Shown here one piece after another: positions 6,275 to 53,920 of a stretch of 64,000 bases of DNA; position 1 is the stretch's first letter; every line of letters starts with the position of its first letter. A model generated the notes under the pieces. That model worked only from the letters and a program-made list of their open reading frames with translations, was not told the origin of the DNA and ran no database searches. Where the stretch lies: the NCBI GenBank assembly GCA_030374765.1, contig JARGXX010000004.1, forward strand, positions 620,001 to 684,000, in the 5' to 3' direction. The stretch comes from Agarophyton chilense (taxonomy: Eukaryota; Rhodophyta; Florideophyceae; Gracilariales; Gracilariaceae). A program made the translations under genes and the position numbers.

Positions 6275-6277
6275 TTT

Positions 6278-7498: not shown

Positions 7499-7501
7499 CT
7501 T

Positions 7502-7517
7502 TGGTCTCCCGACTTAG
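7502..7517 (+). other. Primer-binding site of element B
   Basis: TGGTCTCCCGACTTAG, three bases after the LTR end; identical to that of element A, so both use the same primer tRNA. Confidence 0.8.
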
Positions 7518-7619
7518 AAAGTATTTTTAGGTTTCGTCGTACCTTCACAGTTCACACGATATTCTGAGAAAAATTGGACGCTCGTACACCTATTTGGTTT
7601 CAGGAAATCCCGCAAAGCA

Positions 7620-14304: not shown

Positions 14305-16906
14305 TTAAGAAGGACCTGTCAGTTCAGGAGCAATGGAATCAGGAGGACCCGTGTTTTTGACTACCCACGGAGGAAAAACTGCGGAAAGGCTAGGAGCCAT
14401 CAACCTAAGAGGTAGCGAAGGAGCGGTAGCCCCGCCGCTGTGGAGAGGAGTCGAAACCATAAGAGGATGAACGAAAGGAACCGCCGGAGCTGGTTGCAAA
14501 ACTGCAGAGTTCAAGTTTGCGCCTAGAATGAGATCTGTCAAAGGATCAGATGGTGCAGCAGCAGAGACGCTCGCCGGATTGGCAATCTGACGGGTGGCCA
14601 GTTGGTACATGTCCAACTGGAACTGATTCCGGAACTCACCAAGTTGGTTCAGCGCTTTCATTTATTGCGCATGGCACGGCAGCAAACCTTCAAGGAGCGT
14701 CAATGCAGCGACCACGGAGGTAGGCCCAGCCCTATGAAAGTTGGTGACGCAAGACTGGCGAATTCGAGCCAGCAAACCCACCACGGCCGGAGAATCCATC
14801 ATAAGTTGAGGCGGAGGCCGAGCAATACCCGCCAACAGAGGTCAAACTGGACCAGCAACCCTCGAGGAGCTCGGTTGAGTAGGAGTCACACCCGTAGGGA
14901 TAGGCGACTTACGACCTTGAGGTAACGGCTCGGACGGGAAGGGAACAGCAAATCGACCAACTGGTGTTTCCACAGTACCGTGATAATGTTCGGGGCTCGC
15001 GGGAGCTCTATAAACAGGAGGCTCCCCGGGATAGAATTGGGCGTGGCAAGGCAAAATCTCCGAAGTTGCAGGATCGAATGCCTGCCAACCTTGATGGGAA
15101 TCCCAGTGGTAATTCTTGCTCTGCTCGAGATACGAGTCCAAATCCTTCACGGTATAATCGGTCCCCTCCACGATCTTCTCGTCACCAAATCGGGAAATAT
15201 TCTCGGCAACCCTCGGAGGTATGAAGAAGATGCGACCTACAGGTTGAACACCATCTCGGTATATGTCAGAGTCGGTATTGCGACAATCCCAATCGACACC
15301 GTAACGGGCGGCCTCCAGAGCCAGGATGGCAACCGATACGGTCCACTCCGAGAGGGCAATGGACTAAATGAGGTAATACCGCTCTAAATTCCGGGAAATC
15401 TGACTTCTGAAGTACGCCAAAACCGGCGGAGTGGGCACGCTCAGTGATAACGGAACATCATAGAACTCCCACCACTCTGGTCGAAGCACGTACCAATCGC
15501 GTCTATCCTTCGTAGGTTGTGAGAAGTACTCGACGTTAAGAAACATATGCATAACGCTAGTGTACGAGTTGCGAGTGCGAACGCGACTCTCCGTCGCTGC
15601 ATCCTCGCCCCACCTACAACGGTCAACCCAATTGATAGTGGTGAAAGGCTGATTCAGGGAAACCAAGTCAGGTGAAACCGGAAGGTAAGTCTCCGGAATA
15701 GACGGGTACTGGCACACTTGCACCACCAATCGACGGTTAATAATTCAGCTCTGGTTCAATGCGCATATACGGCAAGTCGCTCGGATATATCGGCGGGATG
15801 AAATACCTCATAGGTGTCTGACGCTGCCGACTCTGGAAACATTCCAGTCGACCCTGACGAGGTTAAGACTCTTGGTCCCTTTTCTTCAAGAGCAAGGGAA
15901 CGGAGCGAAGTCGCTCGCAGTCCCAACGAGACATTTCCTCTCATTTACTATATGACAGCTCGCTACGCTCGTACTATTACGCTTCGCATTTTTAACTAAG
16001 TACTATTGACAAGGTAAAAAATAATTTTTTGACAACAACATTTCAATTTTTAATACGAAGCTATAGTGTTTTAAACTACCACGCGATGGCATCCGAGCGA
16101 CTTAACCAAAAAAATATCTAAGTCCCAGCCAGCTCACCCCCACTCCCCAAAAACCAATCCTAGACCAAAACCCATTAAATTCCTACAACCAAGTCCACTA
16201 CTACTATCCAAACTAAACTTCCTTCTGATATAGATTCCAAGCTCTAAGTTGATATTCCAGGAGACAGTTTTCTGTTATAATAATTTTTTCAGAAAACTGA
16301 TTCCGAGTGTAAGAATTCTGACGAACTGACTTAAACGAAAAACGATTTTCGGCTTAGGTTTCCACATGATAATCCACCTGTCCTTTTACAAGACTTCCCG
16401 CAGGGTTAAAGGAGAGAGCTACGATCGATCCAACTGTGGGGACGGGGGCGAGTATTCGACCAAACGCAGAGGCGTCAATTTTTCGTCAAGTCTCCGGAAA
16501 TAATAATCCCTACGCAGGCTCTGGATTAAAGCAAACCCAAGTAGGTATCTAATTGTGGTCTGGTAAGAGCTGCCGGCAATGACGAACTCCCTACCGCCAC
16601 AGGCCAATCGTGCTTCAACAGGTCATTGTTTTTCACCTGGTTGAAGGTAATACCAAAAGGTCCATACTGACTCGTCGTCCGGTTCGCCGCATCAAACACG
16701 AGATTGTGAGCCCAATTTGTTTGGGTCGTCGAAGGAAGTCCACCACTGCGTTAGTACTGGTCAGCCGGAGTCCCAGGGGAGAACTCAGTCGCAGGGACAG
16801 GCATACTGCGAAACCCAATGTTGGTAGGCGTTTGCGAAGTCGAGCGAGTTACCCTCTTGGTAGTACCACCGCGTCCACGGCCACGAAATGGGCCGCTACC
16901 TGACAT
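14305..16906 (-). pseudogene. Antisense accessory ORF of gypsy B (aORF-B)
   Basis: Protein-like reading region opposite to gag-pol, between the chromodomain and 3' LTR. From a likely ATG at 16906 (MSGSGPFRGRGRGG) it runs leftward: QTNWAHNLVFDAANRTTSQ (about 16720), a deleted DIRS-like insertion (15934-16534), YTSVMHMFLNVEYFSQP and ERRDWYVLRPEWWEF-like text (15729-15364), KIVEGTDYTVKDLDSYLEQ with WQAFDPATSEI (15180-15060), and a Pro/Ala-rich C-terminus with NQFQLDMYQLATRQIANP (to 14305). Several stops or frame changes break it. The motifs line up in order with aORF-A and aORF-D. No known domain was recognised. Confidence 0.6.
15934..16534 (-). mobile_element. Deleted copy of the DIRS-like element inside aORF-B
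   Basis: Reverse complement of the two ends of the element at 48881-54265. Its left end (reading from 16534 leftward) gives IQSLRRDYYFRRLDEKLT, as at 48886-48950. It then jumps to the end of the recombinase gene (DYHVET) and carries the whole 3' region to the terminus GAATGAGAGGAAA-like end at 15934. The central 4.8 kb (ORF1, RT, RNase H and most of the recombinase) is gone. The twin-hairpin arms CAGTTTTCTG/CAGAAAACTG are kept at 16265-16274 and 16290-16299. Confidence 0.8.
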
Positions 16907-16945
16907 GGTTGGGAAAGCCGTAGCTCTACCCAACGACTGAGGTAA

Positions 16946-17371
16946 TTACTCGACCTCCACCGCCACGGTAAACACCAGCGAATATTCATCCTTCTGAAGT
17001 AGAGCCTCCTCGGTCCGTTCTGAGGAGACGGCCCACGGATCCAACCTTTCCGGTAGTACCGACACTGACCTTTCGGGTACAACAGTGGCCGGCGTGCGGT
17101 CGCGAGCGGGTCCAGACCTTTGAGTTATCGTGGAACGGGACCAATCAGACCTTAAAGGCATAACTGCAGGGGTATCAATCCCCTCGGAATCTCTAACTTC
17201 TTCGACCTCAATGGTAACTGGCATCTCACGTCTCTCGAGCGCTGGTGCTGCTTGTGGGGACGAACCACCCCTTCGAAGTATCGATGACGAATCCACAATG
17301 CGGCGCGAGGTGCACCGAAGTGGTACCGAGTGGGTTGGAACGCGTGCGTGGAGGTGGCACGATCCTGTCAC
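16946..17371 (-). CDS. Hypothetical ORF upstream of aORF-B
   Basis: Open frame of 141 codons on the same strand as aORF-B, ending 40 bp before its ATG. It is rich in Arg, Ser, Pro, Glu and Val (REMPVTIEVEEVRDSEGID, FTVAVEVE). No domain recognised. It may be an N-terminal part of aORF-B joined through a frame change, or an unrelated open frame. Region 17372-18066 between it and the 3' LTR has no other supported gene. Confidence 0.3.
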   Translation of the reverse strand: MTGSCHLHARVPTHSVPLRCTSRRIVDSSSILRRGGSSPQAAPALERREMPVTIEVEEVRDSEGIDTPAVMPLRSDWSRSTITQRSGPARDRTPATVVPERSVSVLPERLDPWAVSSERTEEALLQKDEYSLVFTVAVEVE

Positions 17372-18066
17372 TACCTTGATGGTAAACCGGAATGTAAAAC
17401 TGGAAAAAGGTCGCGTACTTACCGACGGGGCTGCTCAACACCAATAAGGTCTCACAACCGGAAGCTGCCAGCACGGACCCAGGCCAACACCTCAATGGTT
17501 GTATCGACGCAAGCTTAGGCCCCACCTGCGCCACGAGTCAATCCTTACAAGGTAGCCAAGACCTGAAAGGTGGAGAAGCCAGGAAACCTACAGGGAAAAG
17601 CCGGAGAGTACGGTTACGGTCGCGACGCCGCCAATTAAGGGCAGTACTACGTGAAGGGTTGTCGAGCCGTGAGAACGACCAGGCGGGACGGCGCTGCGCA
17701 GGGACCTAGGAGAAGATTGAAGTTGAAGTAACCAGGAAGGATGCGATACCCACTTAGTTAGACAGTGGAAGATGCGGAAGCCGAATCGCAGGCAAGCAAA
17801 GCCACTACAGAAAAGGTGTCCGAGAGCGTGCTAGGTACACTGCATCGCCCTCATGACAGTCCCTACCTGAGTGGTTGTCGCTCAATTCGTGCGCCGACGT
17901 CGTCGCGCGTCCTCCCCCAACCGATACTGGCGCCTAGTTCTGAACCTCAAGGAATCCAGCGCCACGCCCAGAAACTACTGCGATTCCCGCGCCGCTGTCA
18001 CTCGCTACAATTCTATGGTGTGATGAAGGGAGACACGGGGCTTGTCTCGTGGGTAGGAAGGGGGTC

Positions 18067-18679
18067 TGTCGTATAGTGGCCTAAGGGCTGACCTTTCAGG
18101 TGTCGGATACACTACGCTGACCTTGTAGGTGATGGGTGCGAGGAATCATCGGCCACGTGGCTCCGGGCGAGCTACCATTTAGGTGTTGTCAGACACGTGT
18201 AGTGTTGACACGTACCTTCTGGTTGAGTAATTGTAAGTACTTGTAATTGTAATTATATTTATTTCAGTACAGTAGTGGAGTGGCCACCTGGCACTGTAGC
18301 CAGTGCTGGCCAGGTCTCTGACACTAAGTCAGAGACCGTGCCTTGCTGGCACCTCCCGGGGGATCTGGAGAGAGCAGTCCAATGCATCCTTATCTGATAA
18401 AGCCAGAAATCACTTGGGTCACGACTATACCTTTCGGTTTATTGTTTCTCAACTACCACACCGGCTTTCCCGCGCGTCGACGCCTACCATCGTCTACCTA
18501 CACGATATATATGATAGTCGCCCCGCCGTTTGCCCCTGCGGGTTTTCACGGTGACCTTTTACCATCCAGGTTTACTACGTCTACCTTCTAAGGTTGAGCG
18601 TCAACACGCTCCCTACGGTTGAGCGTCACTACGCTCCCGAGACAAGACAGTAGCATACCCCAGAGGTGATTGTACGACA
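18067..18679 (+). repeat. 3' LTR of gypsy element B
   Basis: TGTCGTA...TACGACA, preceded by the polypurine tract AGGAAGGGGGTC. Hairpins at 18313-18337, 18596-18611 and 18621-18636 match those of the 5' LTR. A-element gag resumes directly after it. Confidence 0.92.
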
Positions 18680-21505: not shown

Positions 21506-21732
21506 TGTGGTGTTTAGTCCTTTTAGAATGCGAGCGCAGGCGCGCGAGCAAGCGATGAGTTTTCGATAGTGAAATGCGATGTTTCCTGTGAAAGAAAGCG
21601 TCGTGCAGTATATATATGCGACGACGGTGAGAATATGAGATATCATAACTATCTAATCCTTACAGCTGGAGATGTTGATTGTTGCTGTAAGGCATGGCAC
21701 ATCCGACATGCCTGTGTGACGTAGACACTACA
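21506..21732 (-). repeat. 3' LTR of gypsy element C
   Basis: TGTGGTGTTTAG...GACACTACA as read on the plus strand. Flanked by the tagac duplication outside and the polypurine tract inside. Confidence 0.95.
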
Positions 21733-21742
21733 GTTCCCTCTT

Positions 21743-23145
21743 TTAAGACAGCTCTAGCTGAAGTTTTGTTTTTGCAGCAAGAGCTTGAGGCGTTGACTTG
21801 CGGGCGAGTAGGAGCTTGACTAGGCGTGGTGCATCTTCAAATATGTTTTGAAGTGGCTCGTCGGTATCTTGTTCTGGTAGAAGACCGTACCAGCGGACGG
21901 TGATAAGGAGATTGCCGGTCAGAGATTCCTTTAGCTTGAGTAGACGGGATATTTCCATACCGCGCTCAGAGTATAAGACGTGCGACATGATAGCTTCAGT
22001 GTCGAGATTCTTATCGCAGTAGTAACGTAGGCGGGTAGAATGGACGTCTTCAGTGATTCCCGTGCGCAAATCTTCAACTGTATAAATGAACTTGCTGATT
22101 TCCTTGAGTACACGTCGTGGTCCGCGCCAGCGTAGAGCTAGTTTCTGTCCGGCGTTGAAGTCTTCTTTTGCAACTAGGACGAAATCACCTTCAATAAATT
22201 CAGCGGGGTTCCCCTTTGAGGCAGCATTACGAGAGCGATCGCGCTGGTAATTGAGGTGGATTTGGACGACAGGATGAAGTTCAGATATGAGGTTTTCGAT
22301 TTCATCGAGGTGAAGGTGTCGTTCACGGTTAACTTCGGGAAGAGTTACAATGTCTCCATTCGACGTTCGTAGAGAAGCGCTTACCGATCGGGAAGGCTTT
22401 TTGCCAGTGAAGATAGTCACTGGTGCAAAGTTTCGGCGCTGCGGCGAAGGCGCATTGTTCAACGCAGATTGAACAAGTGGCACGAGAGTTGGCCAGTCCT
22501 CGATCGGGAGTTGTAGTTCTGAGCATGTTGCTCGTAAAATACGTAGTACTTCTTTTCCCATACGTTCGATAGCACCGTTAGACCACGGTGTGTAGGAGAG
22601 GGTGAAGTGATGATGTATGCGGAGGGATTTAGCAAGCTTGCTAAGAGTTTCATTTTCAAAATGAGTGCCTCCGTCGGACATAAGAGCAGTAGGGGTGGTG
22701 AATGATGTACACCATTCGAGAATTGCAGATGCGGCGTTAGTAGAATCGGCTTCGACGAAGGGGAAGAGCCATACAAAGGAGCTGAAATCGTCGCGTAGCT
22801 TAAAAATGTATTTCGAGCCCGAGGTGCTTGGTCCTATTTCGAGGTAGTCGAATCGTTGGAGGTCGTTCTCCGATGTTCCATGAAAGGCAGGTCCGAATGG
22901 GCGCGGCTCCTTGTCGCCTCCAGTTGTATAAACGCAGTGTATGCATGCTCGAACGAAATTACGAATGTCATCTCGTAGGGTTGACCAGAAGAAATGCTCG
23001 CGAATTCTCCTTTCAGTTGCGTTGGTACCGCGATGTCCTGCGGTAAGATTATGTTTGATGATACAGATTCGGAGTTGCAGGTCGCCGGGGCGTCCGGGAT
23101 CCAGATAGCTCCGTCTTTGTTGCGGAGTAGATCCCCTGAACGCAC
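21743..23145 (-). pseudogene. pol: Gypsy C integrase with chromodomain
   Basis: The N-terminal part (23145-22834, GAIWIPDAPATCNSESV) and the core lie in different frames; the frame changes near 22950. The core shows YLEIGPSTSG-type text, LMSDGGTHFENE and SNGAIERMGKEV, with the second Asp and the Glu in the long frame 22681-21743. C-terminal: FVLVAKEDFNAGQKLALRWRGPRRV (GPY/F region) and a chromodomain-like end (ISRLLKLKESLTGNLLITVRWYG...LLPEQDTDEPL). The C-terminal 312 codons are uninterrupted. One frameshift inactivates the gene. Confidence 0.85.
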
Positions 23146-23367
23146 AAACTGGCTCGATCGATCCGCTTGATGTTGCGTTTGTATTTCATCGATTTCCTTT
23201 TCGGAAGGCCATAAAAAACCATCAGCGGACGCGGATGATAGAGCCCGTATGTTGACTAGACGTCGTACCGTTTGTGTAGAGTCCCATCTTCTTAGTAGAT
23301 CAGCCTATACGTTTTCAACGCCTGATATATGGAAGCACGTATAGTTATACCAAGACATTGCAACTGC

Positions 23368-25401
23368 TCATCGTAGCACTTTTCGGACAGAACTGGCCGA
23401 AAGATCAGGGAGATATCGGAGAGGATCGAAGATGAAGACGATATTGTTATGGTCGGTATGTAGATTAAATCCAGCTGGATCACCAAGTAGCCACCTCATA
23501 CGCTCGCAGCTTGCGAGGATTGCGAAAGCCTCCTTTTCGAATATAGACCACCCACATTGGGTTGCGTTGAACTTGCCCGATAAGAAGGCAAGAGGTCCAT
23601 GGCGTTCTTTATCGAAAGGCAGTTTTAGATCTTCTGAAGGTACTTGAGTAACAATACCTGACCAGACGCGGTCGCATGCGTCGGTGAATAAGCATAGGCG
23701 GTGCTTGGGATTGCGGTGCACCAACATGCATTGGTTGGCTAGCGCTTTTTTGCAATCTTCATAGCTATTAAGATGTTCGATCGACCATCCTATACTTGAG
23801 AGCGAGACTTTTGCGGCAGCACACGATGTGCGCTTGCCTGAGATCTCGTATGATTTTTCGAGAACATCGTTGAGAGGATTCACGAGTTGCTGAAACTGGG
23901 GTATGGCCATGCGCGTCCACTGCATGGCGCATAAGAATTGTTGTAGATGTACCGCTGTTGTTGGAGGTTCCATCGATAGCAGACCGTGTAAACGACGAGG
24001 GTCATATTTAATTCCGCTAGGTGATATGGAGCGACCGCACCACGTCAATATACGGGTGAATAAGTCGCATTTCTCGGGATAGAGTTTGATATTTTTCTCG
24101 CGACACATTACGAGAAATGTGCGTATAGCGTTGAGGAGTTCTAAATCCGTAGTAGCCTGCATGAGAATATCGTCAAGCCAGGTGATGAGATATTCTTCGA
24201 TAGATTTTGGAGTAGCAGCTTGTACGGAGGATTGTAGATAGGCAACGGCGTTGGAAGTTCCATGTAAAACGCGCGTTGGTGTGTAGACTCCGTGTGGCGT
24301 TATGAAGGATTGACAATCCTGGCTTTCAATCGAAAGTGGGAGTTGCCAGTAGCCATGAAATAGGTCGAAGTTTTCGTAGCAAGTAGACTTCGCCAGTTTG
24401 GTGAGTTCGTGTTCTAATATCGGCATTGGATAAGCGAACTTTTCGGTGTAGTTGTTGACAGCTCTCAGGTCAACAGTGAATCTGAACTTCGATGGTCCAG
24501 GTTTGGGTACGATCAGTGGACAAGATGCCCATCGTGATGTAGGATTTTCGTAGACATGACCTTTGGATTCTAGTTTGCCAACGAAAATTTTTAGGAAGAC
24601 AGCTTGTTCCGGGTTGTACTTTCGTAGTTTAGCGCGTATCGGCTTGGCGTCCTTAGTCAGAGGTATTTTCAACCGCGGTAGCTTTGCTGGGTTACCGTTG
24701 GTGAGATTGAGATGAAATACATCTTCAAATTCATTGACGATTTTGTCGAGGAGTTGGTGATGTTCAGATGACAGATTTTTCTTCGCGCGTTTCTTCATAT
24801 CAAGGATTGCTTCCTTGCGCCTTAATTCTTCTTGGGAACCGATCGGGTCCAAGAATGAAGGGTCAGGAAACGGATCTTCTTGAGTTTTTACCTCATAGTA
24901 GTTCACATGAGGTCTGAATACGTCGCCTTGAACTTTGTTTCTGCGGTGAGGGACGAGGCGGGATATATATCCGCCGGTGGTTATCGGGTTTCCAACAATA
25001 GAATAATCAGTTCCGGTTAGTTCTGGTAACTTCACGTCGATGATGGAATTGGTATCCACTTTGAGGTGTCGAAGTACAGGGTTACCGATGATTAGAGGTT
25101 CCGATATTATTTTGTCGTCGGCAACGAGGAACGATACATTTCGCAGAGCCATTTAGCCAGAATTCATTTCCATAATGATTTCAGGAATTTCCCAGCGTCG
25201 TGAAAACGTGAACTTCGGTCCGCCTTCCTTCTTCTGCAAGGGGACTTGTAGTTCGACGGGTTTGATCTTGCGAAAGCAGCCGACTCCTTTCAGTGCAGCT
25301 TCTTCTGCTACAGTAGGGCAGCTAAGTGAGTCGTCGGCTCCATCGTCCAGTCGACCGACTGTCGAAAACATAGCGTCAGCATCTTTTAAACATACCTTCA
25401 A
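23368..25401 (-). pseudogene. pol: Gypsy C protease, reverse transcriptase and RNase H
   Basis: From 25401 the protease part includes RLDDGADDSLSCPTV, where a D-D-G replaces the usual D-S/T-G. A TAG at 25153 separates it from 594 uninterrupted codons (25152-23368) in the same frame. RT blocks: WASCPLIVPKPGPSKFRFTV-type start, DLRAVNNYTEKFAYPMP, NFDLFHGYWQLPL, and catalytic TWLDDILMQ. RNase H: LFTDACDRVWSGIV and FEKEAFAILASCERM. Gag (ending 25428) is in another frame, so expression would need a frameshift. After 23368 scattered stops lead to integrase. Nearly intact. Confidence 0.9.
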
Positions 25402-25427
25402 CGATGCGTATGAAGTGTATGGATCAT

Positions 25428-26354
25428 TTAGACGACCAGCGTTCGGGTTTGTTGGCGGCGAGTTCCGCCGGAGGGTCCCGGTGTAGCTTTAAGTTCCTTG
25501 AGTTTGTCGAATAGAACTTGGCGGTCGGAATTGTTTTTGAATTTTGGGCAGTCCTTGATATAATGATTTCTCTTCGGACCTTTATGTTCCTTCTCACATT
25601 CGGAATGGGGGCATGGCGGTACTTTCCTCTTTTTCTTCTTCGGCTCAACGGGAGTATCTGTTTCACCGTCTTCGTCGTCGCTTTCAGAATCAGAAGTTGC
25701 ACCGATCGGGGCCTTCTTTGTTTCAATGTACCTGCAAGTTTTTGCGAGGTTGACGCAGTGGTCGCGGAAACCTAAGAAGTTCTCTTTGAGATTCAAATGT
25801 GCTCGTCGTAGGTCACTCTTGATGATATCTTTCAAACCTACCGGTCGGATGGCCTGAAGGATGTGCTTGACAGCAACGCGTGGTGCGTCGGTGCTTACCC
25901 ATTCGCAATCAAGCTTCTCAAGAATAGTGTAGCAGTCGATAAACAAATTGAACATACGTGACTCGATCGAATCATTGTTCATGTTCATGCAGAGCTTTTT
26001 CTTGACTTGCTTGTCGAGAGTTGCGACGTCGGTATTGCTTTTGTCAGTTTTGGCTTGCGCTTCGAGATATAGTCGAAGCGTCATGTCATCAAGTTCGCTT
26101 ACGGAAGTTAATTGTTTTCCCTGGGGGTCATTGAAGATACCCATGAATGTTGCGCCTTTCAGCCAGGCAGCATCAAGGCAGAATTTCATCGAAACAGCGC
26201 TTGCAGGTTGTATCGCGCTTTTATCCTCGAGCGTGGATGTACGTTGTGCATGTCGCTCAGTAATCTCTAGTACGTATTGGTCGTACTCGCCGAGGAAGGT
26301 TCTTATGTTTCGAGGAGTTACCGTGCGCAATCGGGGATACTCGGTTGCAGGCAC
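25428..26354 (-). CDS. gag: Gypsy C gag
   Basis: Uninterrupted 308-codon capsid/nucleocapsid gene starting MPATEYPRLRTVTPR. The middle is helical (SELDDMTLRLYLEAQAKT, HLNLKENFLGFRDHCVNLA). The C-terminal third has an acidic/basic switch (SDSESDDEDGETDT then EPKKKKRKVPP, also a good nuclear localisation signal) and a Cys/His region CPHSECEKEHKGPKRNHYIKDC, a zinc-binding nucleocapsid-like finger. It lies about 315 bp after the 5' LTR. Gag and the protease frame differ by one phase. Confidence 0.85.
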   Translation of the reverse strand: MPATEYPRLRTVTPRNIRTFLGEYDQYVLEITERHAQRTSTLEDKSAIQPASAVSMKFCLDAAWLKGATFMGIFNDPQGKQLTSVSELDDMTLRLYLEAQAKTDKSNTDVATLDKQVKKKLCMNMNNDSIESRMFNLFIDCYTILEKLDCEWVSTDAPRVAVKHILQAIRPVGLKDIIKSDLRRAHLNLKENFLGFRDHCVNLAKTCRYIETKKAPIGATSDSESDDEDGETDTPVEPKKKKRKVPPCPHSECEKEHKGPKRNHYIKDCPKFKNNSDRQVLFDKLKELKATPGPSGGTRRQQTRTLVV

Positions 26355-26669
26355 AGCAAAGGTGTTTGATCAACCACCTTTACGCGGCGACGTGGTGAAG
26401 GAATCTTCTTTTTTCATGTCGGCTATGCGTTCTTGATTTAAGGTCGATAAAGTTTCGGAGCGTCGGTGTTGCTCGCGAATGAGTTAGCTCAGTTGAACGA
26501 TGAGCAAAGAGTCGATAGAAGAACTGCTTCGATCGAAGTAGTTCAGCGAATGTTTCCGGTGATCGCGTACCAGCGTAGCGGGGGTGATTTCCGCAAATTA
26601 AGTTCCGTCGGTTATGTCGCGGATAGATTGATGAGATCAACCGTAAAGGTTTATTACCGTATTGATCAA

Positions 26670-26894
26670 TGTTGTGTTTAGTCCTTTTAGAATGCGAGCG
26701 CAGGCGCGCGAGCAAGCGATGAGTTTTCGATAGTGAAATGCGATGTTTCCTGTGAAAAAAAGCGTCGTGCAATATATATGCGACGACGGTGAGAATATGA
26801 GATATCATAAATATCTAATCCTTACAGCTGGAGATGTTGATTGTTGCTGTAAGGCATGGCGGATCCGACATGCCTGTGTGACGTAGACACTACA
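26670..26894 (-). repeat. 5' LTR of gypsy element C
   Basis: Near-identical to 21506-21732. The sequence just inside it (ttgatcaatacgg on the minus strand) does not start with the usual TGG, so the primer site is not clear. Region 26355-26669 is the untranslated leader. Confidence 0.95.
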
Positions 26895-28464: not shown

Positions 28465-30106
28465 TTGGTGGGAACCCCTGGATGCCTGTTTGACTATGAC
28501 CGATTTGGACTACTATGTCGCCGCTCACCGCTGGATGGCGCACTCCAACGGGTAGTACCAACTTCGCTAAGGGCGCGATTCCTATACCTCGCCCATTCCC
28601 CTCGCTTAGCTGGTCACCCTGGAGGCCGAGGAATGTACCGGACCCTAAGGAAGTTCTTCTACTGGCCACTAATGGCGCAGGACCTATGGCAAACTGAAAG
28701 GAACTGTACATCGTGCGCACAAATCGGAGGGGCTCGCGAAAACAATCAGGCCAAATTAAACCTTTTCCCCGCCGCAGGTCCGATGTAATTTGTAGCGATG
28801 GATATACTTGGGCCTTTGCCTAAGTCGTCCCATGGGAAACGGCTTGTTTTCTTCATAAACGATTGGTTTACCAAACTTACCCGAGACCCACCCCTTGGAA
28901 AGACAACGGCCACAGATGTCGCCACGGCCTTCTTGTCCCACTAGGTTTACTCATATGGCATGCCACTCTACCTCTTTATGGAAAATGGCAGCCAGTTTGT
29001 ATCCAAAATCTTCTCACACGTTTGTGCTACCTTAGGCATCAAGCATGTGACCACCACGGCGTACCACCCACAAACCAATGGACAAGCCGAACGCTTCAAC
29101 CACATCCTTCTGGACAAATTGGCACACTACGTATCGGAGCATCAATTGGACTGGGACGCCTACGTTGAGCCACTGGTTTATGCATACAACACGCAGGTGC
29201 ACGCTTCCACGGAGACAACACCTTTCGACTTAACGCTAACGAGAGCCCTGCCGCCGATAGCTATTGACATTCAGAAGTCTATCATACCCCAGGGCATAAC
29301 CGAAGGGATGACTTCAACCCAGGCCAAGCGCTACTCGCGCCAACGCATCGACCGCATTATCCAATCAGCTAGAACTGTACCGACCAAAGCCCAACGGCGC
29401 TACAAGGTCATTTTCGACAAAGCCGTTTGGAACAAACCGACCTTTGGGAAAAGGGAACTTGTTTCTTTGGACCAGCCACCGAAGGACAGTGAGTAACCGA
29501 GGACACTACGCGGACTTTGTATGGTCCTGTAGAAAGGGGATCTTACCCTGCTCTACAGGACCATACAAAGTCCTTAACGCCAATCAACATAATATTACGT
29601 TACTAATTGACGGCCTACAGGACACGGTATCTACTGATCGGGTGACACGAGCTCCCAGCTCCCCCGCATCACCAAAGTCCCAGTCCCTTGGCCCAACGGA
29701 ATCACTACGACCTCAGGTCGACGCTCAAGTCCCCACACACCCTAAGGAAGTTTCCGTAGACCTGACTATCCCAATGGACCCGATGGTCAATGACAACGAC
29801 GACAACCCATCTCTTCCAACCGACTCCGATGGATTCGCCCCTCTGAACCACACTCTTTTGCCGGAGAATGAATACGAACCGGAATATGTGATTGAGCGCA
29901 TCATCTCCGCCGGCCGGGGAGAAGATGTAACAATACGCTATCGCGTCCGTTGCTTCAGCTACACACCTGAGAAAGACACTTGGCAAGAGCCTCAAACCAT
30001 TCAAATTAATTTTATCACCCGCTATTTGTGCGAAATCGGCAGCACGGAGCGCAGCCTTCAGGAGGGGACAACCATTGGCCCGAGAAATCCCAAAACGCCT
30101 CTCTAA
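28465..30106 (+). pseudogene. pol: Gypsy A integrase with chromodomain
   Basis: The zinc region is complete: HSPRLAGHPGG...NCTSCAQ (H-H-C-C). Core: VAMDILGPLP (first Asp, after a TAA at 28786), FMENGSQFVSKIF where the second Asp is replaced by Glu, and NGQAERFNH (Glu). A stop at 28942 and a frameshift near 29490 follow. The 29444-30106 frame has STGPYKVLN (GPY/F) and a chromodomain: EPEYVIERIISAGRGED, then KDTWQEPQTI. It would insert cDNA but is dead. It converges with aORF-A, whose end lies 270 bp on. Confidence 0.9.
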
Positions 30107-30375
30107 ACGCCTCCTGACACGAAGGTTCGCCGGAGCACGACGGTTCACCGTAGCTCCGGCATCAGAGAACAAATTCAGTCCTAAGGCGACACATGAAGAA
30201 GACCCAGGACGCTTTCAATGTTCGACACCGTCCCGGGGCACGCACGTTTGAGATACAAGAATAACCTTGGGAAAGCAAAAGCATTACATTATTTGACTCA
30301 CAAACACCATGACCTCAAGGTTCGCCGAAGCGCGCCTAACACCAACAAGACTCACGGGGGCAACGCAGGAGTAAC

Positions 30376-32242
30376 TCAGTCGTCCTCATTGGAGCCTGGA
30401 GGAGCGAAACCAGGACTCGGGTCACCCGAGGAGCCAACTGAAACACCAGAACCGGCCCTAGCGAGCCGAGTACACTTCTTTGGAGGAGATTCACCTGAAG
30501 AACTATCGTCACCATCGGAAGCCCCCCAGTCACTCAAAATTAGACCATAGCGGACATCCAAGCCGGCAGTAACCCTCTGGGACATCATTTGGGCATTCTG
30601 CTGCAGGATATTGACCATGGCGGTTTTCAGTTCCTGACGCTGTTGGACAACCGCGGCGTAGCGCGCCGAGCGACGCGCCCAAGAGCAAGCTTCCCTCAGG
30701 ACTGTCGCGATGTCCATAGAGGCCGTAATACTAACGATACGGCAGACATGAGAAAAATCCGAAGACGCAGCCCTGACCGAAGCGGGACAGTGTGGCAACG
30801 GAGAGGACAGAGCGATGTCTTCGCTCCCAGTGGACGTTTGAGCCGGCGCATCACCTATAGGACCTTCGATCGCCACAGTAACCTCGCCAGGAGGGATGTC
30901 CACTTGGGCGACGGATAGCTCATAAGAGAGCTCATCCTGAGGAGCATGGTAGGACGAAGGAATCTTCACCGAAGGGTTCCCGATCGGACATGACAGCAAG
31001 AACCAACGGCGTGGCTTCCACATCAGGCTCGAAGCACAGGGGATCGAAACCGATGGCCTTCGGATAGTAGTCGGGCACATGACGCCTCGCGATATCCGAT
31101 GGTTGATTCCTAAAAGGCTTGGCGGGATAGACACAAGCGTCGTCCTGACCCTGCAGATGTAGCGGAGTCGCTGTGAATGAGTCTGTATCGTGGTCATACC
31201 AAAAGAACCCGGGAGTTTTGCCCCAATTCACCTGCAAGACATGATCCAAAAGGGCCTCCGTCTCCTCGACGTCGAACTGGGTCCCATAGACGATATTCTT
31301 GATGCCCAGGTTTCTTAGGAAAGGGATCATGATGTCGGGGAGCGGTATTAGGCGACCTCGAGGACCGGGTCTGCTCTCGACGTACCATACCCTTCAATGC
31401 TCCGAGCGGACATGACCACGGATTCCGTATTCCGCGGAATCCAGGAAGGCCATAAGGGAAATCACGCCGAACTCAAAGAAGAGTACCTCCCAGGACAGCC
31501 ACGACCTTCAGTCATTGTCATCGCCCAACAGTTGGGACGAGTGGTACGTCACCACAGACGGCTTGCGAACCAAAAGGAGCGGCGAAACACGCCAACACAT
31601 GGAGCATTGGTTGTCATCCTCATGGGGAAGCGAAAGATATAACGGAAGACGTTTTTCTGCGCCCATGTCGTGAAACTCCACCTGGTACCAACAGAAGAAG
31701 ATCCCTAGGGATTGACGCAAACGACCATCGGGCTCTTTCCTCTCGTTCCAATAGATCTTATTGGACATCTAAAACACGCAGTCCCACGGCGGCCGGAAGC
31801 ACATAAGCGCCAAGAGGTTGTGACCCGCTGGAGGAAATTGCACATGAGGCGAGATGAAGTCGGTCTATAGGTCATAAAGGAGTTGGTTAACCCTAAACGG
31901 GTATTCGACTTCCTTCTTTCATCGGACGTACTGTATGTCCGCTTATATGAGGGTGTGACATCGCGTCTCCGAACGCGGATCCAAAGGACAATGCAACCAT
32001 CGGTTATACCACGACACGCTGCGCGCGTTCTTGCTGCCCCTCCGGAAATCGGGTATCTCAGCAAACCTTCTGGCATCGAGATACACATGGCAGAACCTTT
32101 GGTATTCTTCCACAGAGAACGGAAGAATGACATGAGGCACTGCCCCCGGATTCCGTCCCACGGTATGGTCATTGCGATCCCTGGGACGTTTGTAAGCCAC
32201 TTTCTTTCGCGAGGAGCTCCCCGCTTGGTTGTTCGAAGCCAT
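30376..32242 (-). pseudogene. Antisense accessory ORF of gypsy A (aORF-A)
   Basis: Protein-like region of about 620 codons opposite to gag-pol, between the chromodomain and 3' LTR. Likely ATG at 32242 (MASNNQAGSSSRKK, good context CACCATGG on its strand). Then LPFSVEEYQRFCHVYLDARR, KNARSVSWYNRWLHCPLDP, stops near 31943, RLRQSLGIFFCWYQVEF (31760-31690), frame changes near 31500, RVWY at about 31385, IVYGTQFDVEETEALLDH (31294-31241), FFWYDHDTDSF, ARRHVPDYYPKAIGFDPLC, and in a further frame a C-terminus with MDIATVLREA, MVNILQQNAQMMSQRV and an acidic tail ending at 30376. The copy in A' confirms the whole length. Broken by several stops and frameshifts. No known domain. Confidence 0.65.
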
Positions 32243-32777
32243 GGTGCCGCTGCCCACAGGCAGGTGCGCTTTGAAATGGATGGGGAAGCCGAGGGAGGTG
32301 ACATAGACCGAAGGGAGAACGGCGTATCCGACGGGCTTATAAGCCGAGTTCGGCATCGCGTGCGACAAATGGAAAAGTACCACCAAGGGAAGACGAGGTG
32401 ACGGAGTCGACCCGAACGGACTGACAGGCGTGAACCATGGTGGACGAAGCGTAGAGGGTCGCCAAAAGAAGAACGGAGACTAAGAAAGGCCTCAATGACC
32501 CTCAGAGAAGAAGAAGCGAATAGACCGCCTCGGCAACGCGACGCAAAACATACGCCGGCGATGCACCTTTAGCCAGCGCTCACGGCGCGTGGGAGTTTCC
32601 GTCCTTAGGCAAATTAATTGCCCTTCGGCGCCAATGGTCAGCTCACGCTTCCCCGCATCCCTGCATGCAATGACGACGCGACGTCCCGTCGCGCCCAGTT
32701 ATCCGGGAGCAACGAAGTGCTCGCGTCCCCTGCGGCAAGCATGAGGCCATATGAACTTCGCCTGACGGCCGAATCCT

Positions 32778-32790: not shown

Positions 32791-33236
32791 TGTGAAGGAG
32801 CCATGATTACGGTTTAGCTCTGTAAGCCGCCGAGACCTGAAGGATATTACAGACGCCACGTGGACTGGTCGACCTCAGGTGGACTCATGTAGATTATCAA
32901 TTTATTTTAATTAGTGTAATAGATTAGCATTACAGAGACAGGGAGATCCCAGCGCCTCGCCAGTACTATTTACTTGGCTCGAGTGCCGCTTCTCCCTTAG
33001 AGTAGGGTAGGCAACGTTAGGATACTAAATATCTCCCTTCGGTATATTAGTTCCACCATTTGGTCTTCAAGCCATCGTTTCCGTAGCTCCAACCTGTAGG
33101 ACTACGAAGTAAACGCCAGCCCATTGCACCAACTACTCTGGGAGTGCCGCCGTCAATGATTCGAACCTTAGGACCCGCTCTACCACGCTACCACCGGTCG
33201 AGACCCGTACGCTGTCCCAACAGTCATTGAGATACA
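32791..33236 (+). repeat. 3' LTR of gypsy element A
   Basis: 446 bp, homologous to 5837-6274, TGTGAAGG...GAGATACA. Many point differences from the 5' LTR indicate an old insertion. Confidence 0.85.
33157..33195 (-). promoter_or_regulatory. tRNA-like module in 3' LTR of A, facing aORF-A
   Basis: Same D-arm/T-arm module as at 6195-6233: GTAGCGTGGTAGAGCGG then GGTTCGAATCA. On the minus strand it points from the 3' LTR into the element, towards the aORF-A start at 32242. A promoter role is inferred only. Confidence 0.4.
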
Positions 33237-40171: not shown

Positions 40172-40193
40172 CCAGCCTGTGGGCAGCGGCACC

Positions 40194-42159
40194 ATGGATT
40201 CGAACAACCAAGTGGGGACCTTCTCGGGATACTAAGTGGCTTACGAACGTCCCAGGGACCGCTATGACCATACCATGGGACGAAATCCGCGGGCAGTGCG
40301 TCATGCCATTCTTCCGTCTTCTGTAGAAGAATACCAAAGGTTCTCTCATACGTATCTCGACGCCAGAAGCTTTGCAAAGATACCCGATTTCCGGAGAGGC
40401 AGCAAGAACGCGCGCAGCGTGTCGTGGTATGACCCATGGTTGCATTGTCCCTTGGATCCGCGTTCGGCGACGGGATGTGGCGCCGTCATCCAAGCGGACA
40501 TGCCACACGTCCCCTGCGAGGAGGAAGTCGAATACCAGTTCAGGGCGAACAAACTCCATTCGGACCTATACACGGACTTCATCTCGCCTCATGTGCGATT
40601 TTCTTCCGCGGGTCACAACTTCTTGGCACTTATGCGCTTCCGGCCGCCGTGTGACCGCCTGTTTTAGATGTCCAATAGGATCTATTGAAACGAAATGCAC
40701 GAGCGTGATGGTCGTTTGCGTCAATCCCTGGGGTTCTTCTTTTGTTGGCACCAGGTGGAGTTTCACGCCATGAGCGCAGACAAACGTCTTCCGTTATATC
40801 TTTCGCTTCCCCACGAGAATGAGAACCAATGGGCCATGTATTAGCGTGTTTCGCCGCTTTTTTGGTTCCCAAGCCGTCTGTGGTGGCATACCACTCGTCC
40901 AAACTCATGGGCGGTGACAATGACCGAAGTTCGTGGCTGTCCTGGCAGGAACTGTTCCTTGAGTTTGGCTTGATGTCCCTTATGGCCTTTCTGGATACCG
41001 CGAAATACGTAATACGTGGTCATGTCCGCTGGGAGGATTGGAGGGTATGGTGCGACGAGAGCAGACCCGGTCCTCGAGGTCGCCTAATCCCGCTCCCGGA
41101 CATCATGATCTCTTTCGTAAGAAACCTGGGCATCAAGAATATCGTCCGTGGGACCCAGTTCGACTTCGAGGAGACCGAGGCCTTTTTGGATCATGTCTTG
41201 CAGGTGGAGTGGGGCAAGACTCCCGGGTTCCTTTTGGTATGACCACGATACCGACTCATTCACGCCGATTCCGCTAAAACCGCAGGGTCGGGACGACGCT
41301 CAGGCTTATCCTGCCAAGCCTTTGAGAAATCAACCATCGGATATCGCTAGGCGTCATGTGCCCGACTACTATCCGAAGGCCATCGTTTTCGATCCCCTGT
41401 GCTTCGAGCCTGATTTGGAAGCCAAGCCTTTGGTTCCTGCAGGTATGTCTGATGGGGAACCCTTCGGTGAAGATCCTTTCGTCCTACCCGAGGGCGTTCA
41501 TTTTCCGGTCGAATAAGCTGTGGTGTTGCCGACGGCTTTCCCTCCTCCAGCTCATCAGGGCGCGGCTCCTCAGGATGAGCTCCCTTATGAGCTGCCCGTC
41601 GCCCAAATGGAAATCCCTCTTGGCGAGTTTACTGTCGCGGCCGAAAGTCCTGTAGGTGATGCGCTGGCTCAAACGTCCACTGGGGGCGTCTACATCGCTC
41701 CGTTCTCTCCGTTGCCACACTTTCCCGCTTCGATCATGGCCGCGGCTTCGGAATCTCCTTCATGTCTGCCGTATCGTTGGTATTACGGCCTAGATGGACA
41801 TTGCGACAGTCCTGAGGGAAGCTCGCTCCTGGGTGCGTCGCTCAGCGCCCTACGCCGCGATTGTCCAACAGGATCAGGAACTGAAAACTGCCATGGTCAA
41901 TATCCTGCAGCAGAATGCCCTAATGATGTCCCAGAGGGTTACTGCTGAATTGGGTGCCCAGTATGTCCTAAATTTGAATGAACTGGAGGCTTCCGATGGT
42001 GACATTAGTTTCTCAGTTTAATCTCAGCCGAAGAAGCGTGATCGGCTTGCTAAGGCGGTTCGTAGTGGTCCAGTTGGCTGCTCGGGTGACCCTAGTCCCA
42101 GTTTCGATCCTGCAAGTTCCAATGAGGACGATGGAGCTACTCTTGCGCAGCCCCAGTGA
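40194..42159 (+). pseudogene. Antisense accessory ORF of gypsy A' (aORF-A')
   Basis: Second copy of aORF-A, opposite to the A' integrase. ATG at 40194 (MDSNNQVGTFSGY, context CACCATGG), only 22 bp from the LTR. Blocks in order: SSVEEYQRFSHTYLDARS, KNARSVSWYDPWLHCPLDP, EVEYQFRANKLHSDLYTDFI (intact here, broken in A), RLRQSLGFFFCWHQVEF, SWLSWQELFLEFGLMSLMAF, RPGPRGRLIPLPDIMISFV, IVRGTQFDFEETEAFLDH (41139-41192), WYDHDTDSF, ARRHVPDYYPKAIVFDPLC, then MDIATVLREARSWVRR and MVNILQQNALMMSQRV to a TGA at 42157. Stops at 40233, 40665, 40842 and frame changes near 40850, 41230 and 41780. Function unknown. Confidence 0.65.
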
Positions 42160-42364: not shown

Positions 42365-43830
42365 TCATGATGTTGGCTCTATGGCGAGTCGTTGTTTCGG
42401 GAGGGGTTGGAGAGGCGTTTTGGGACACGTTTTGGTATTATTCGGGCCAATGATTACCCCCTTCAGAAGGCTGCGCTCTGTGCTGCCGATTTTGCGCCAA
42501 TAGCGGGCGATAAAATTAGTCGGAACTGTTTGAGGCTCTCGCCAAGTGTCTTTCTCAGAGGTGTTGCTGAACCAACGGGCGCGATAACGCATAGTTCCAT
42601 CTTCTCCCCAACGAGCAGAGATGATGCGCTCAATCACGTATTCCGGTTGGTATTCATTCTCCAGAAGGAGAGTGTGGTCCAGAGAGGCGAATTCATCGGA
42701 GTCGAATGGAAGAGATGGGTCATCGTCATTGGCATTGACCATCGGGTCCATAGGGCTAGTCGGTTCCGCGGAAACTACATTAGGGGGTGTGGGGACTTGA
42801 GCGTCGACCTGAGGTCGTAGTGATTTCGTTAGGCCAGGGGGCTGGGACGTTTGGTGATTCGAGAGAGCTGGGGGCTCGTGTCACCCGATCAATAGATACG
42901 ATGTCCTGTAGGCCCTCATTTAGTAACTTAATGGTGTGTTGATTGGCCTTAAGGACTTTCTACGGTCCCGTACAGCTGGGTAAGAGCTTCTCCGTAGTGT
43001 CCTAGAGTACATCACTGTCCTTCGGTGGCCGGTACAGATAAACAAATTCTCCATTCCCGAAGGTAGGTGTGTTCCAGACGGCTTTGACGAAATTGACCTT
43101 GTAGCACCGTTAAGCGTTGATCAGTACAGCTCTAGCCCAGTGGATAATGCGGTTGATGCGTCGACGCGAGTAGCGCTTCACCTGGGTAGGAGTCTTTCCT
43201 TCGGGTATGTCCTGGGTTATGATGGACTGCTGAACGTCAACAGCTATCCGCGACGGCGCTCTCGTCAGCGTTAAGTCGAACGGTGTTGTCCCTGTGGAAG
43301 CGTGCACCTGCGTGTTGTGGGCATAAACCAGTGGGTCAACGTAGTCGTCCCAGTCTAATTGGTGCTCCGTTACGTAGTGTGCCAATCGGTACAGAAGGGT
43401 GCGGTTGAAGCGTTCGGTTTGGCCATTGATTAGCGGGTGGTACGCCATGGTGGTAACATGTTTGATACCTAAGGTAGCACAAACGTGTGAGAATATTTTG
43501 AATAGAAACTTATAGCATCCGCTGTAACGGAGAGAGCAGAAACCTGCGACAGTGTTCGGGACTGCAAAATGGGTACTTGCGGCTAAGGAGAAGATGCGGT
43601 AGAGCACAACACTAGCGAGCTAGAATGGGGTTTGTAAGGCCCCACTTGCCAATGAGGGTGGTTGGTACTATGGAACGGATAACTACTTGTTGTAGCTCGT
43701 CCGGATCTCCGGTTAAGGAATCCTGGACAAGGAACAAGTCAGTTGTGAACCCGTTGTTGTCTACTTTACTTCGGAGTCGGCCCTCCCCTCTGTTCCATCT
43801 ATACTGTGCACAGGGGTGAGCGCCGCACAT
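42365..43830 (-). pseudogene. pol: Gypsy A' integrase and chromodomain
   Basis: 43830-43612 reads DNNGFTTDLFLVQDSLTG, the segment before the integrase zinc region, after which about 0.5 kb is missing. 43607-43110 gives KIFSHVCATLGIKHVTTMAYH, INGQTERFNR (catalytic Glu), DWDDYVDPLVYAHNTQVHAS. 42751-42365 gives a chromodomain (QPEYVIERIISARWGEDGT, KDTWREPQTV). Close in sequence to element A. The first two catalytic Asp positions are lost. Confidence 0.85.
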
Positions 43831-45138: not shown

Positions 45139-46842
45139 ATGAACCCTTCCGCGCTGCACAACTCCAACAACGGAGACGTACACTCAGAGGGTCCTTATGC
45201 CATCAGCGGTTTCAAATCGCAAGCTGCGGCGCCTTCGGTCTTCAGATCAACTCGGTCTCTTCGGGTGGGTTTCCACTCCTTGCTTTTATTGCCTTCATCT
45301 TCAGGTGTGATGCCAAATGCAGCTTATGTATCCTCCACTGGGACCATTGGAGCGCCATCTCGTCGGGCTAAACGCAGCTATCCAGGTTTCGTGGGCTTGG
45401 TGGGACGAGACCCTCTCAGGGATGCTGACCTCTTCGCACAGGCTCCCTGGTTTGACCCAGTCGCTCTTCGCGATGACGCGTTGATCAAGCGATACGTCTT
45501 CAGCGGTTACGTTCTCGATGGCCTTTCATATGCGGCTATCCGCAGCAACGATTGGCTTACTCACTGTGCTTTGCCAGATAACGCGATTGCCCGGTACACC
45601 AATGAAAGTATGGACAAAGCCCGAACTCGGTTCACGAAGCTAAGATACCAGCGTCTGCACCGTTTCATGAGCACGGTCGTTCTCACTGTAGATTGTAATC
45701 TGAATCCCTGGATGGCTCGCACGAATGGCGAAGGATAATCGTACATCGATACCTTATACGAATTCTACGTCGACAAATGGCGCGGCTAACGCGATGTACG
45801 CGACGCAGCACTCTGCTTTCGCCGGCTCTTGCTCCGTGCCGTCTTCCGTTTCGTCCACAAGAGGGACATGACTTATTGGACTTATCCTCGTTGGGAACGA
45901 CGTACGAGATCCCGATTGGGGTACCCGGTTCCATACCAAATGATCGAGATTGATCGAATTAGGCGGAATGCTCGCGTCGGACGCTCTGTCGCGCTACTAG
46001 AACACTGGGCGGAGATCGAGAGCCCTCGTGGATGTCCGGTGGAGCTTCCTCCTGCTATAACTTATATCGGTTCTGCGTTGATCAACGACCCTTTCTTGCG
46101 ATACTGGACGGTCGTGTTCTCCGAATTCATTGCCAAGATGGCAGCGTATAACGTCTCAGATGCATAAGATACCTATCGTGTTTGGTACATGTCACGAAGA
46201 GCGCGAAGATATAGGAGGCAACTCGATCCTTCCCTTGTGTTGGGGTCACGTGCCAATTTTGACGAAACCCTACTTTTGGTAGACTTGATCGACAGTATCG
46301 ACTAGTACTGGGTTCCATTGCAGCAATCAGCTAGAGGCATAAGGGTGCGTCATCGAGATCACTCGCCGAGACGCACAGCTAATGCTGGAGATTTTGTAAT
46401 GTACAATCCCTGAACCAGCCAGATAATCACGTCTGATCAGGCTCGTGATCTTCGTGCGAATCCTAGAGAGTTCCCTTCTAATCAGCGTACTGGATATGTG
46501 AACGAGTCCACACCTTCCCAATTTGCAGATCTGAAGTATGAAGAAGCTCCAGGTGCTGATGCAAAACTCGGTTTCGAGGATGAACCTGGACTATCCGGTA
46601 CAGCGCCTGTGAATGCTGCTTCGCCACCAACGTCTGCGACATCGGGTGTTAACCCGTCGATGGAATACTATCATAGGTTTTCCCAACAACCGAGCGATGA
46701 TAAGGATCCATTTTTTGGCACCGTTGAGGCAATTTCTCTTAGAGGCGGGTTTCCCCGATGCACAGCTGCAAGGCGATCGTGCTGCGCTTACCGCCATGCT
46801 GAATCATCGTACCAGCGGGTATGTTTTTTTGACCGACTTTAG
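45139..46842 (+). pseudogene. Antisense accessory ORF of gypsy D (aORF-D)
   Basis: Opposite to D pol, between chromodomain and LTR. One phase runs from ATG 45139 (MNPSALHNSNNGDVHSE) to about 46300 with stops at 45736, 45790 and 46165. Blocks: DALIKRYVFSGYVLDGLSYA, AIRSNDWLTHCALP, DAALCFRRLLLRAVFRFVHK, TYWTYPRWERRTRSRLGYPV, RYWTVVFSEFIAKMAAYNV, YRVWYMSRR, VLGSRANFDETLLLVDL (about 46236-46290). Then FVMYNP-x-TSQI (46390-46425) and a Ser/Pro/Ala-rich tail with FLLEAGFPDAQLQGD in another frame. The order matches aORF-A and aORF-B. No known domain. 46843-46949 holds a CTT repeat and no gene. Confidence 0.6.
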
Positions 46843-46949: not shown

Positions 46950-47259
46950 CTACAATTCTTCTTCTAAGGGGAACGGGAATTCACACTCGTTCTGCAGAAT
47001 CGCGTCTAGAAAGCCCATCATTGCGGCGTCGATCTCCGCAGGGAGTGGTAGTCGAATGCGACGATGATAACGCAAAACCTGTGAGAGCGGGATATGAGTT
47101 ATAGGCTCCCGAGTATCCGCATCCGGAGGAACGCCTTGCCAACGGATACAATACAGTAGTCTGTGGTTGTCTTCGTCTTTGCCGTGATCGATGATGCGGT
47201 CTATGAGGTAATCGTGGGCATTCAGGCGGATGGCGCGAGGTTCCGGTTCACCGGTTTAT
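46950..47259 (-). pseudogene. pol: Gypsy D chromodomain (C-terminus of integrase)
   Basis: About 103 codons without an ATG: GEPEPRAIRLNAHDYLIDRI, then LLYCIRWQGVPPDADTREP and LSQVLRYHRR, a full-length chromodomain; the hydrophobic/aromatic core positions (Y, W) are present. It ends at a TAG (46950-46952). It is separated from the preceding integrase part by stops at about 47260-47350. Such domains bind histone tails or otherwise direct integration; the target here is unknown. Confidence 0.75.
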
Positions 47260-52870: not shown

Positions 52871-53811
52871 CTCACCGACGGGCAAAAGCGGCAACACTGC
52901 AGGGATACCGTAAGAACCTTGGTTATTTCGTGGAGTGGCTGGCGCAACAACCAGTCGCTCGCCGTCGATGTACGAACGCAGAAGAAGTTGATAAATTGTT
53001 CACGAGGTATTGCATTGATCTTTTTCATGGTAACCAACACTTGAAGGCAGGAGGTGTTGCTCAGGCAAAATCACCGTTTGAATTTTTTTCTCCCCGAACT
53101 TAGCGGGAAATTGGTATTGGCGAATCAAAGTATACAGGGCTGGACAGCATCGCGCCCTAACATTCATTTTGGCGTGTGTCCGGAAATCGTTGTATACGGA
53201 TTCGCATTGGATCTTTTTAAGCACGGGGATCCGGATCTGAGGGTAGGATTGATGCTGCTGTTTGGTGGGTATCTCATGTTAGGGGATTTATTGCAGCCAA
53301 AATTCTTAGAAGTCGCCATGCTGCCGCTAACCGAAAAGCGGCCGCACTATGGGATACTCAACATTGCGATAGGAAAACGTGGCCTTAATGAATCCGTCAC
53401 GATATTGTATTTTTGGCGGTTTTGTTAAACAAGTTTGTTAGAAGAAGGAAGTTGGCAGAAGCAGAATTTCTTTTCCCGTATCAACCAGCCCGGTTTCGGG
53501 CCGGTCTCCGACGAGCCTTCGAACGTCTAGGGATTCCGTTCGCGATTACTCCACACATGTTTAAGTACGGCGGGGCGACCACCGATAAGCTTTTTGTTCG
53601 CGCCGACCAGGATATTAAATGCGGAGGACTTTGGCAAAGCGATAAGAATTTTAGGGGATATATTCAACCACACAAATTATACCAAGCGCTCAACGAACTA
53701 TCCCCGGCCCAACGTCAGTCATTTGAGGCGGTTTACACCAGGGCATACACATCTTTCAACGTGCCACCGCCAGATCGGGCTGGAAGTTTGAATTATCATG
53801 TGGAAACTTAA
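52860..53811 (+). pseudogene. DIRS-like element tyrosine recombinase
   Basis: Integrates circular cDNA by strand exchange in DIRS elements. The core-binding part reads AHRRAKAATLQGYRKNLGYF and continues to 53103; a frame change near 53080 gives 53054-53428 with GGYLMLGDLLQ, where the first catalytic Arg is replaced by Met, and another near 53420 gives 53413-53811. There ITPHMFKYGGATTD is the H-x-x-R block with Arg replaced by Lys, and GLWQSDKNFRGYIQ holds the nucleophilic Tyr. His and Tyr are kept, both Arg lost. Ends LNYHVET before a TAA at 53809. Confidence 0.85.
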
Positions 53812-53841
53812 GCCGAAACTCGTTTTCGTTTAAGACAGTTC

Positions 53842-53920
53842 GTCAGAATTCTGCACCCGACTCGCCGAATTCTGACACTCGGAATCAGTTTTCTGGAAAA
53901 ACCATTATAACAGAAAACTG
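53842..53920 (+). repeat. Twin inverted repeats in the 3' region of the DIRS-like element
   Basis: First pair GTCAGAATTC (53842-53851) / GAATTCTGAC (53867-53876). Second pair CAGTTTTCTG (53886-53895) / CAGAAAACTG (53911-53920). The second pair is kept in the deleted copy (16265-16299). They lie 30 bp after the recombinase stop and could be recombination or RNA structure signals. Confidence 0.8.

Follow-up and report, generated by a model that had tools for sequence, protein, structure and literature searches.

Accessory genes read antisense to gag and pol are known from plants, from HTLV-type retroviruses and from one element of fungi; for those in plants, the function is called unknown (PMC7264820, PMC11963269). 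For the Retand elements of flowering plants, antisense open reading frames (ORFs) between pol and the 3′ LTR are reported as common in recently active elements, with a regulatory role proposed for them and their function described as unknown, and the TRP28 domain (Transposase_28, PF04195) as present in 97% of Retand clusters (PMC11963269). Similar examples are gene23 of Grande, which has its own promoter and a nuclear product, and Boty of Botrytis and Sclerotinia, an LTR element whose antisense ORF likewise separates pol from the 3′ LTR (PMC7264820). An antisense promoter in the 3′ LTR is described for HTLV (PMC7264820), and HBZ for HTLV-1 (PMC11963269). The available text of a paper on chromoviruses makes no mention of an antisense, extra or additional ORF (PMC3605345), and among the titles and abstracts of the open-licence literature we found none that reports an antisense ORF for LTR elements of red algae.

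Here we describe such a gene in the red alga Agarophyton chilense (Gracilariaceae), in which chromodomain Ty3/gypsy elements carry one homologous coding gene, antisense to gag-pol, in the interval that runs from the chromodomain to the 3′ LTR. These elements resemble Retand in being Ty3/gypsy elements with antisense ORFs between pol and the 3′ LTR, but Retand is a non-chromovirus lineage of plant hosts, whereas the algal elements have a chromodomain (in D, PF00385, E = 6.3e-7) and a red-algal host. The antisense proteins of Retand contain PF04195, whereas Pfam searches of 12 D-type and six A/B-type algal proteins gave no match to it at E values up to 1; a genome search for PF04195 was empty, and the control of that search was silent too. 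The parallel with plant antisense ORFs drawn in the initial annotation, the nearest being those of Retand, Grande and RIRE2, therefore holds for the layout and not for descent as far as PF04195 goes, to which no homology was detected. Grande gene23 and aORF-3R of RIRE2 are likewise antisense accessory genes in the 3′ internal region, the comparison being by description, with transcription and nuclear location known for Grande and the algal gene known from its sequence. Boty, also compared by description, is fungal and thus a non-plant element like the algal ones, with its ORF in the same place. The likeness to HBZ of HTLV-1 is one of layout only, namely an antisense regulatory protein from a promoter in the 3′ LTR. 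To our knowledge HTLV-1 is an element type unrelated to the algal gypsy elements. Features that the algal elements have in common with chromoviruses are a C-terminal chromodomain, pieces of integrase and, in B, reverse transcriptase and RNase H.

The window, by which we mean the whole stretch of 64,000 nucleotides analysed, holds elements that we call A, A′, B, C and D. The way in which the parts follow one another suggests that B and C are insertions nested in A. The LTRs of A (5′ LTR 5837-6274; 3′ LTR 32791-33236, plus strand) are 90.1% identical and those of B (5′ LTR 6866-7498; 3′ LTR 18068-18679, plus strand) 90.4%. A sequence resembling a primer binding site follows the 5′ LTR of A (6276-6296, plus strand) and is identical in B at 7500-7520. 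A′ is a second, inverted copy of family A, and D is a minus-strand element. When scanned for reverse transcriptase and RNase H, B gave Pfam matches to both (RVT_1, E = 4.5e-30; RT_RNaseH, E = 1.2e-28). The chromodomain is clearest at the pol end of D (46953-47255, minus strand, PF00385 E = 6.3e-7, above the cut-off), where it lies opposite the stop of the antisense ORF. Matches below the cut-off were found in the chromodomain region of the A′ pol (42368-42880, minus strand, E = 0.0012) and for a partial chromodomain in the B pol (14001-14102, plus strand, E = 0.036, a fragment), and a Pfam scan of the stretch 29312-30103 of A, whose pol frame ends at 30103, gave no match. Element C (21506-26894), nested in A, is a compact Ty3/gypsy element with LTRs 96.9% identical and a target duplication TAGAC; it apparently sits inside the pol of A, and differs from the others in having no match to the antisense families (tblastn, window).

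Several further fragments lie in the window. A reverse transcriptase fragment occupies 55530-56992 on the minus strand (RVT_1, E = 7.2e-11 for 55530-56099), and no match to the antisense families was found near it in the window. An Ulp1-type protease fragment at 57758-58429 (PF02902, E = 6.5e-6) is possibly part of a DNA transposon. Two transposase fragments were also seen, one at 1520-2008 (DDE_Tnp_1_7, E = 2.6e-16), which we take to be piggyBac-like, and one at 406-1029 (DDE_3, E = 4.8e-11), presumably mariner-like.

In A, A′, B and D alike we confirmed that the strand opposite gag-pol holds a gene-sized but decayed frame (hereafter aORF). Its extents were mapped by tblastn, the queries being copies free of stops at other places in the genome, and each copy in the window has 5-7 in-frame stops; 11 reversed proteins used as control queries gave no tblastn matches on the window. 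In A, the N-terminal and core part (30944-32356, minus strand) is 72.6% identical to the open copy L009, and tblastn with the same copy places the C-terminal part in a shifted frame (30370-30945, minus strand), giving one frameshift and seven in-frame stops over 653 mapped codons. This C-terminal part reads PPKKCTRL in the window and PPKKRARL, which resembles a nuclear localisation signal (NLS), in L009. The initial annotation had placed a gene-sized antisense region at 30376-32242; its size and strand stand, while the similarity begins 114 bases further upstream, at 32356, about 435 bases inward of the start of the 3′ LTR. The methionine of MASNN at 32242 is a possible start.

The counterparts that had been proposed in A′, B and D, in the same place and orientation, were recovered. 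That of A′ (40185-42153, plus strand) has seven stops and frame breaks. In B, the aORF runs from 17434 to 14311 with six stops, and comprises a core and C-terminal part (14311-15735, minus strand, 86% identical to the open copy L049) and an N-terminal part (16532-17434, minus strand), with MSGSGP at 16906 and an extension to 17434 that is open in L049. The two parts are split by an insert at about 15935-16531. The segment 15932-16376 recurs inverted at 53789-54267 (88% identical over about 450-480 bases). The aORF of D (45139-46819, plus strand) has five stops and a break near 46755, and is 72% identical to the open copy L055 and 57% to the sister family D2.

The copies in the window are part of a large population. 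In the 79.8 Mb assembly (135 contigs), the A tail query had at least 156 matches (from 141 scored candidates out of 1016, with double matches at some places), the B query at least 150 (150 candidates scored of 507) and the D query at least 150 (150 scored of 1250), many of the last, at 52-58%, belonging to D2. With D2 included under D, each of the three groups A, B and D has the aORF at no fewer than about 140-150 scored places. These counts are lower bounds for the elements, with duplicated contigs possible among them, and as copies were selected by presence of the aORF they give no share of pol copies that lack it. Stop-free frames of 560-682 codons are present, open from methionine to stop over 682 codons in A (L009), 666 in B (L049-L051), 560 in D (L055), and 560 (L052-L053) or 561 (L054) in D2. 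In L049 another 176 codons are open upstream of the MSGSGP start (corresponding to 16907-17434), so that the B protein may be some 100 residues longer than initially annotated; the mean dN/dS over codons 68-176 of this extension is 0.65, a constraint like that of the core (0.63), and 0.83 over the less constrained codons 0-68. In three database searches, those matches to the antisense products that carry a name (6 of 12, 3 of 4 and 1 of 1) were all entered as "unnamed protein product [Agarophyton chilense]", and further relatives were found at 35-51% identity.

The position of the gene relative to pol is largely constant. Considering the best-scoring pol match, 26 of 27 A copies have the 3′ end of pol on the opposite strand, facing the stop end of the aORF. 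For the exception, L015, the best match belongs to a neighbouring element; the pol adjoining the aORF is on the opposite strand here too. The same layout is seen in B in all nine stretches that reach pol, of 12 stretches in total. Among the 13 copies of D and D2, the chromodomain lies on the opposite strand in nine and was undetected in three (L042, L052 and L054); in L055 it is on the same strand as the aORF, with another pol piece opposite. In A the gene lies between the end of pol (30103) and the 3′ LTR (from 32791), with the aORF at 30370-32356. That of B lies likewise between pol and the 3′ LTR, and that of D is seen on the pol side, without a located LTR.

Though the A, B and D products are highly diverged, their profiles match. 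The initial annotation had set profile comparison as a test, and hhalign found similarity for every pair: A-B (probability 98.9, E = 3.1e-17, score 139), A-D (97.7, 2.5e-12, 104) and D-B (96.1, 3.5e-9, 79). These scores are far above those of decoys: the best of 40 column shuffles per pair scored 26.6 for A-B, 28.3 for A-D and 26.4 for D-B, and reversed profiles did not exceed 28.3 either. Single proteins also bridge the families by tblastn on the window: P0016 has matches in A (3.7e-46) as well as in B (3.2e-21), the D-type proteins P0009 and P0012 match B (2.8e-8 and 3.4e-6), and P0012 matches A (1.2e-4). In a core alignment of eleven sequences, identity is 24% for A-B, 20% for A-D, 18-21% for B-D and 36% for A-P0016, and 34-68% between the D types and P0007-P0012. 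The ordered motifs noticed at the outset, IVYGTQFDVEETEALLDH in A, IVEGTDYTVKDLDSYLEQ in B and VLGSRANFDETLLLVDL in D, followed by WYDHDTDSF, AFDPATSEI and MYNPxTSQI, fall in register in this alignment of open copies. A further motif, RVWY, said to be common to A and D, is doubtful, being paired by hhalign but not by MAFFT. We are highly confident that the three products are homologous, that is, that they stem from a coding gene of shared descent.

To look at selection, we read codon pairs from the tblastn alignments, unmended, and calculated dN/dS by NG86. Within the families A, B and D, 537 of 538 scored pairs have dN/dS below 1; the pairs share copies and are therefore not independent tests. 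Median values are 0.46 for A (below 1 in 405 of 405 scored pairs, 406 being possible), 0.64 for B (78 of 78), 0.66 for D (54 of 55) and 0.77 for D2 (3 of 3). The A median drops from 0.64 at dS 0.1-0.2 (17 pairs) to 0.34 at dS above 0.6 (two pairs), as expected of copies that were selected when active and decayed later; the exception is the single pair below dS 0.1, at 0.33. Regression of dN on dS gives slopes of 0.25 (A), 0.37 (B) and 0.14 (D). Between D and D2, dN is 0.30 and dS 1.7 (33 pairs), a ratio of 0.18 that is approximate owing to dS being near saturation. When all six frames are compared, it is the aORF frame that has the lowest dN/dS for 381 of 405 pairs in A and for 70 of 78 in B; this control is weaker in D (only 32 of 55) and in D2 (0 of 3).

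Rates of change at codon positions 1, 2 and 3 follow the order 3>1>2 in A (0.155/0.134/0.225), B (0.074/0.073/0.095) and D (0.128/0.106/0.157), with positions 1 and 2 almost equal in B. The spacers of A change at 0.35 upstream (58% gaps), more than the A aORF, and at 0.195 downstream, less than the third positions of A (0.225), and those of D at 0.25 upstream and 0.22 downstream, more than the D aORF; the downstream spacer of B (0.074) is about as conserved as the B aORF. The gene is kept by purifying selection on the antisense reading, with weaker evidence for D alone. The check on dN/dS that had been proposed accordingly gave values below 1, those within D and D2 being weak.

The proteins themselves had no credible match in Pfam, NCBIfam, PHROGs or the PDB. 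AlphaFold models are weak (P0007, pLDDT 56 and pTM 0.45; P0016, pLDDT 44 and pTM 0.33), and comparison of the weak P0007 model with solved and viral structures (Foldseek, VIA-align) gave no credible fold match. Both models nonetheless predict the same order in the core, a long helix, strand, helix, helix and strand, to which P0007 adds another short strand. A winged helix has its helices and strands in this order. The C-terminus of D-type proteins is predicted as a helix pair in the P0007 model, and one of six C-terminal pieces, that of P0007, is Ish1-like, though short of the Pfam cut-off (E = 0.0029). A has an NLS-like KRAR within PPKKRARL and B an RGRG, or RG-rich, N-terminus, and a pattern scan of the D proteins found neither of these.

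These predicted features, together with the nuclear product of Grande (PMC7264820), lead us to infer a nuclear regulator. An antisense promoter located in the 3′ LTR, or just inside it, would drive transcription of the aORF. The protein made from it would be a nuclear accessory factor. Its N-terminus would be disordered and its core rich in helices, with a predicted order like that of a winged helix; an acidic linker would lead to a C-terminus that is a helix pair in D and, in A, a helical region containing the NLS-like stretch. The protein may bind DNA or chromatin and so regulate the transcription, silencing or integration of the element, in the manner of Grande gene23 and, more loosely, of HBZ of HTLV-1. 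As a whole, a conserved antisense gene with a nuclear regulatory product is the explanation that we think probable, if by no means certain, and the regulatory mechanism by itself is put forward as a tentative proposal.

Several other explanations can be considered. The open frames might be an artefact of base composition or of coding on the sense strand, and the mirrored sense frame (-1) does show reduced dN/dS (A 0.54, B 0.78, D 0.71). However, this frame and the aORF share their third positions, which accounts for the low values, and it contains 22-37 stops in all nine copies whose antisense frame is open, with 7-37 stops across all sense frames of these copies. The stop counts refute such an artefact, to which we give practically no weight, and with it goes the sense-strand account of the conservation that the initial annotation had named as capable of overturning its proposal. 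It is also conceivable that the antisense transcript itself does the work, pairing with genomic RNA and feeding or escaping small-RNA silencing, the protein being secondary; regulatory antisense transcripts are discussed for other LTR elements (PMC7264820). We consider this unlikely, as the amino acids are under selection in the antisense frame (median dN/dS 0.46-0.66 in A, B and D) and protein similarity is kept across families at under 25% identity.

An env-like ORF of the usual kind, in sense downstream of pol, is ruled out by the aORF being on the opposite strand. A structural or entry-type (env-like) factor encoded in antisense and acting at membranes is another candidate, since the core helix is hydrophobic (Kyte-Doolittle 1.8 in A, 2.1 in B and 1.6 in P0016) and env-like ORFs fill this same interval between pol and the 3′ LTR (PMC7264820). 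These are in sense, however, whereas the aORF is antisense, and the aligned helix is charged in the D relatives (YTEFIAK, YTEWIAR), the top 19-residue values of D-type proteins being 0.9-1.5 and located elsewhere in L055 and P0011; we thus find a membrane role improbable. Lastly, the region could be a captured host gene or a nested foreign element, carried along and not needed. Gene capture is known in LTR elements (PMC7264820, PMC11963269), and no origin was found for the aORF protein. Yet three deeply diverged families hold it at the same place and orientation and under constraint, and it has no credible match to any known protein family, which makes capture very unlikely.

The proposal of the initial annotation, that a lineage of chromodomain gypsy elements has retained a single old accessory protein, is therefore borne out by dN/dS below 1, by matching profiles and by exclusion of the sense strand. 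The antisense-ORF architecture is not in itself new, being of a kind known in plants and fungi (PMC7264820, PMC11963269), but the family of aORF proteins appears to be new, as does its host, a red-algal chromovirus. A bolder reading, which we regard as possible though doubtful, is that an ancient red-algal chromodomain lineage has its own antisense nuclear regulator, with a new fold or a far-diverged winged helix, that arose separately from the antisense genes of plants, fungi and retroviruses. If this is true, antisense accessory genes would be a recurrent way to control LTR elements. The results also identify an abundant protein that is entered as unnamed products in the matching algal records. 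With its open present-day frames and its relatives elsewhere, the red-algal family provides an independent test of whether, and why, such genes arise repeatedly.
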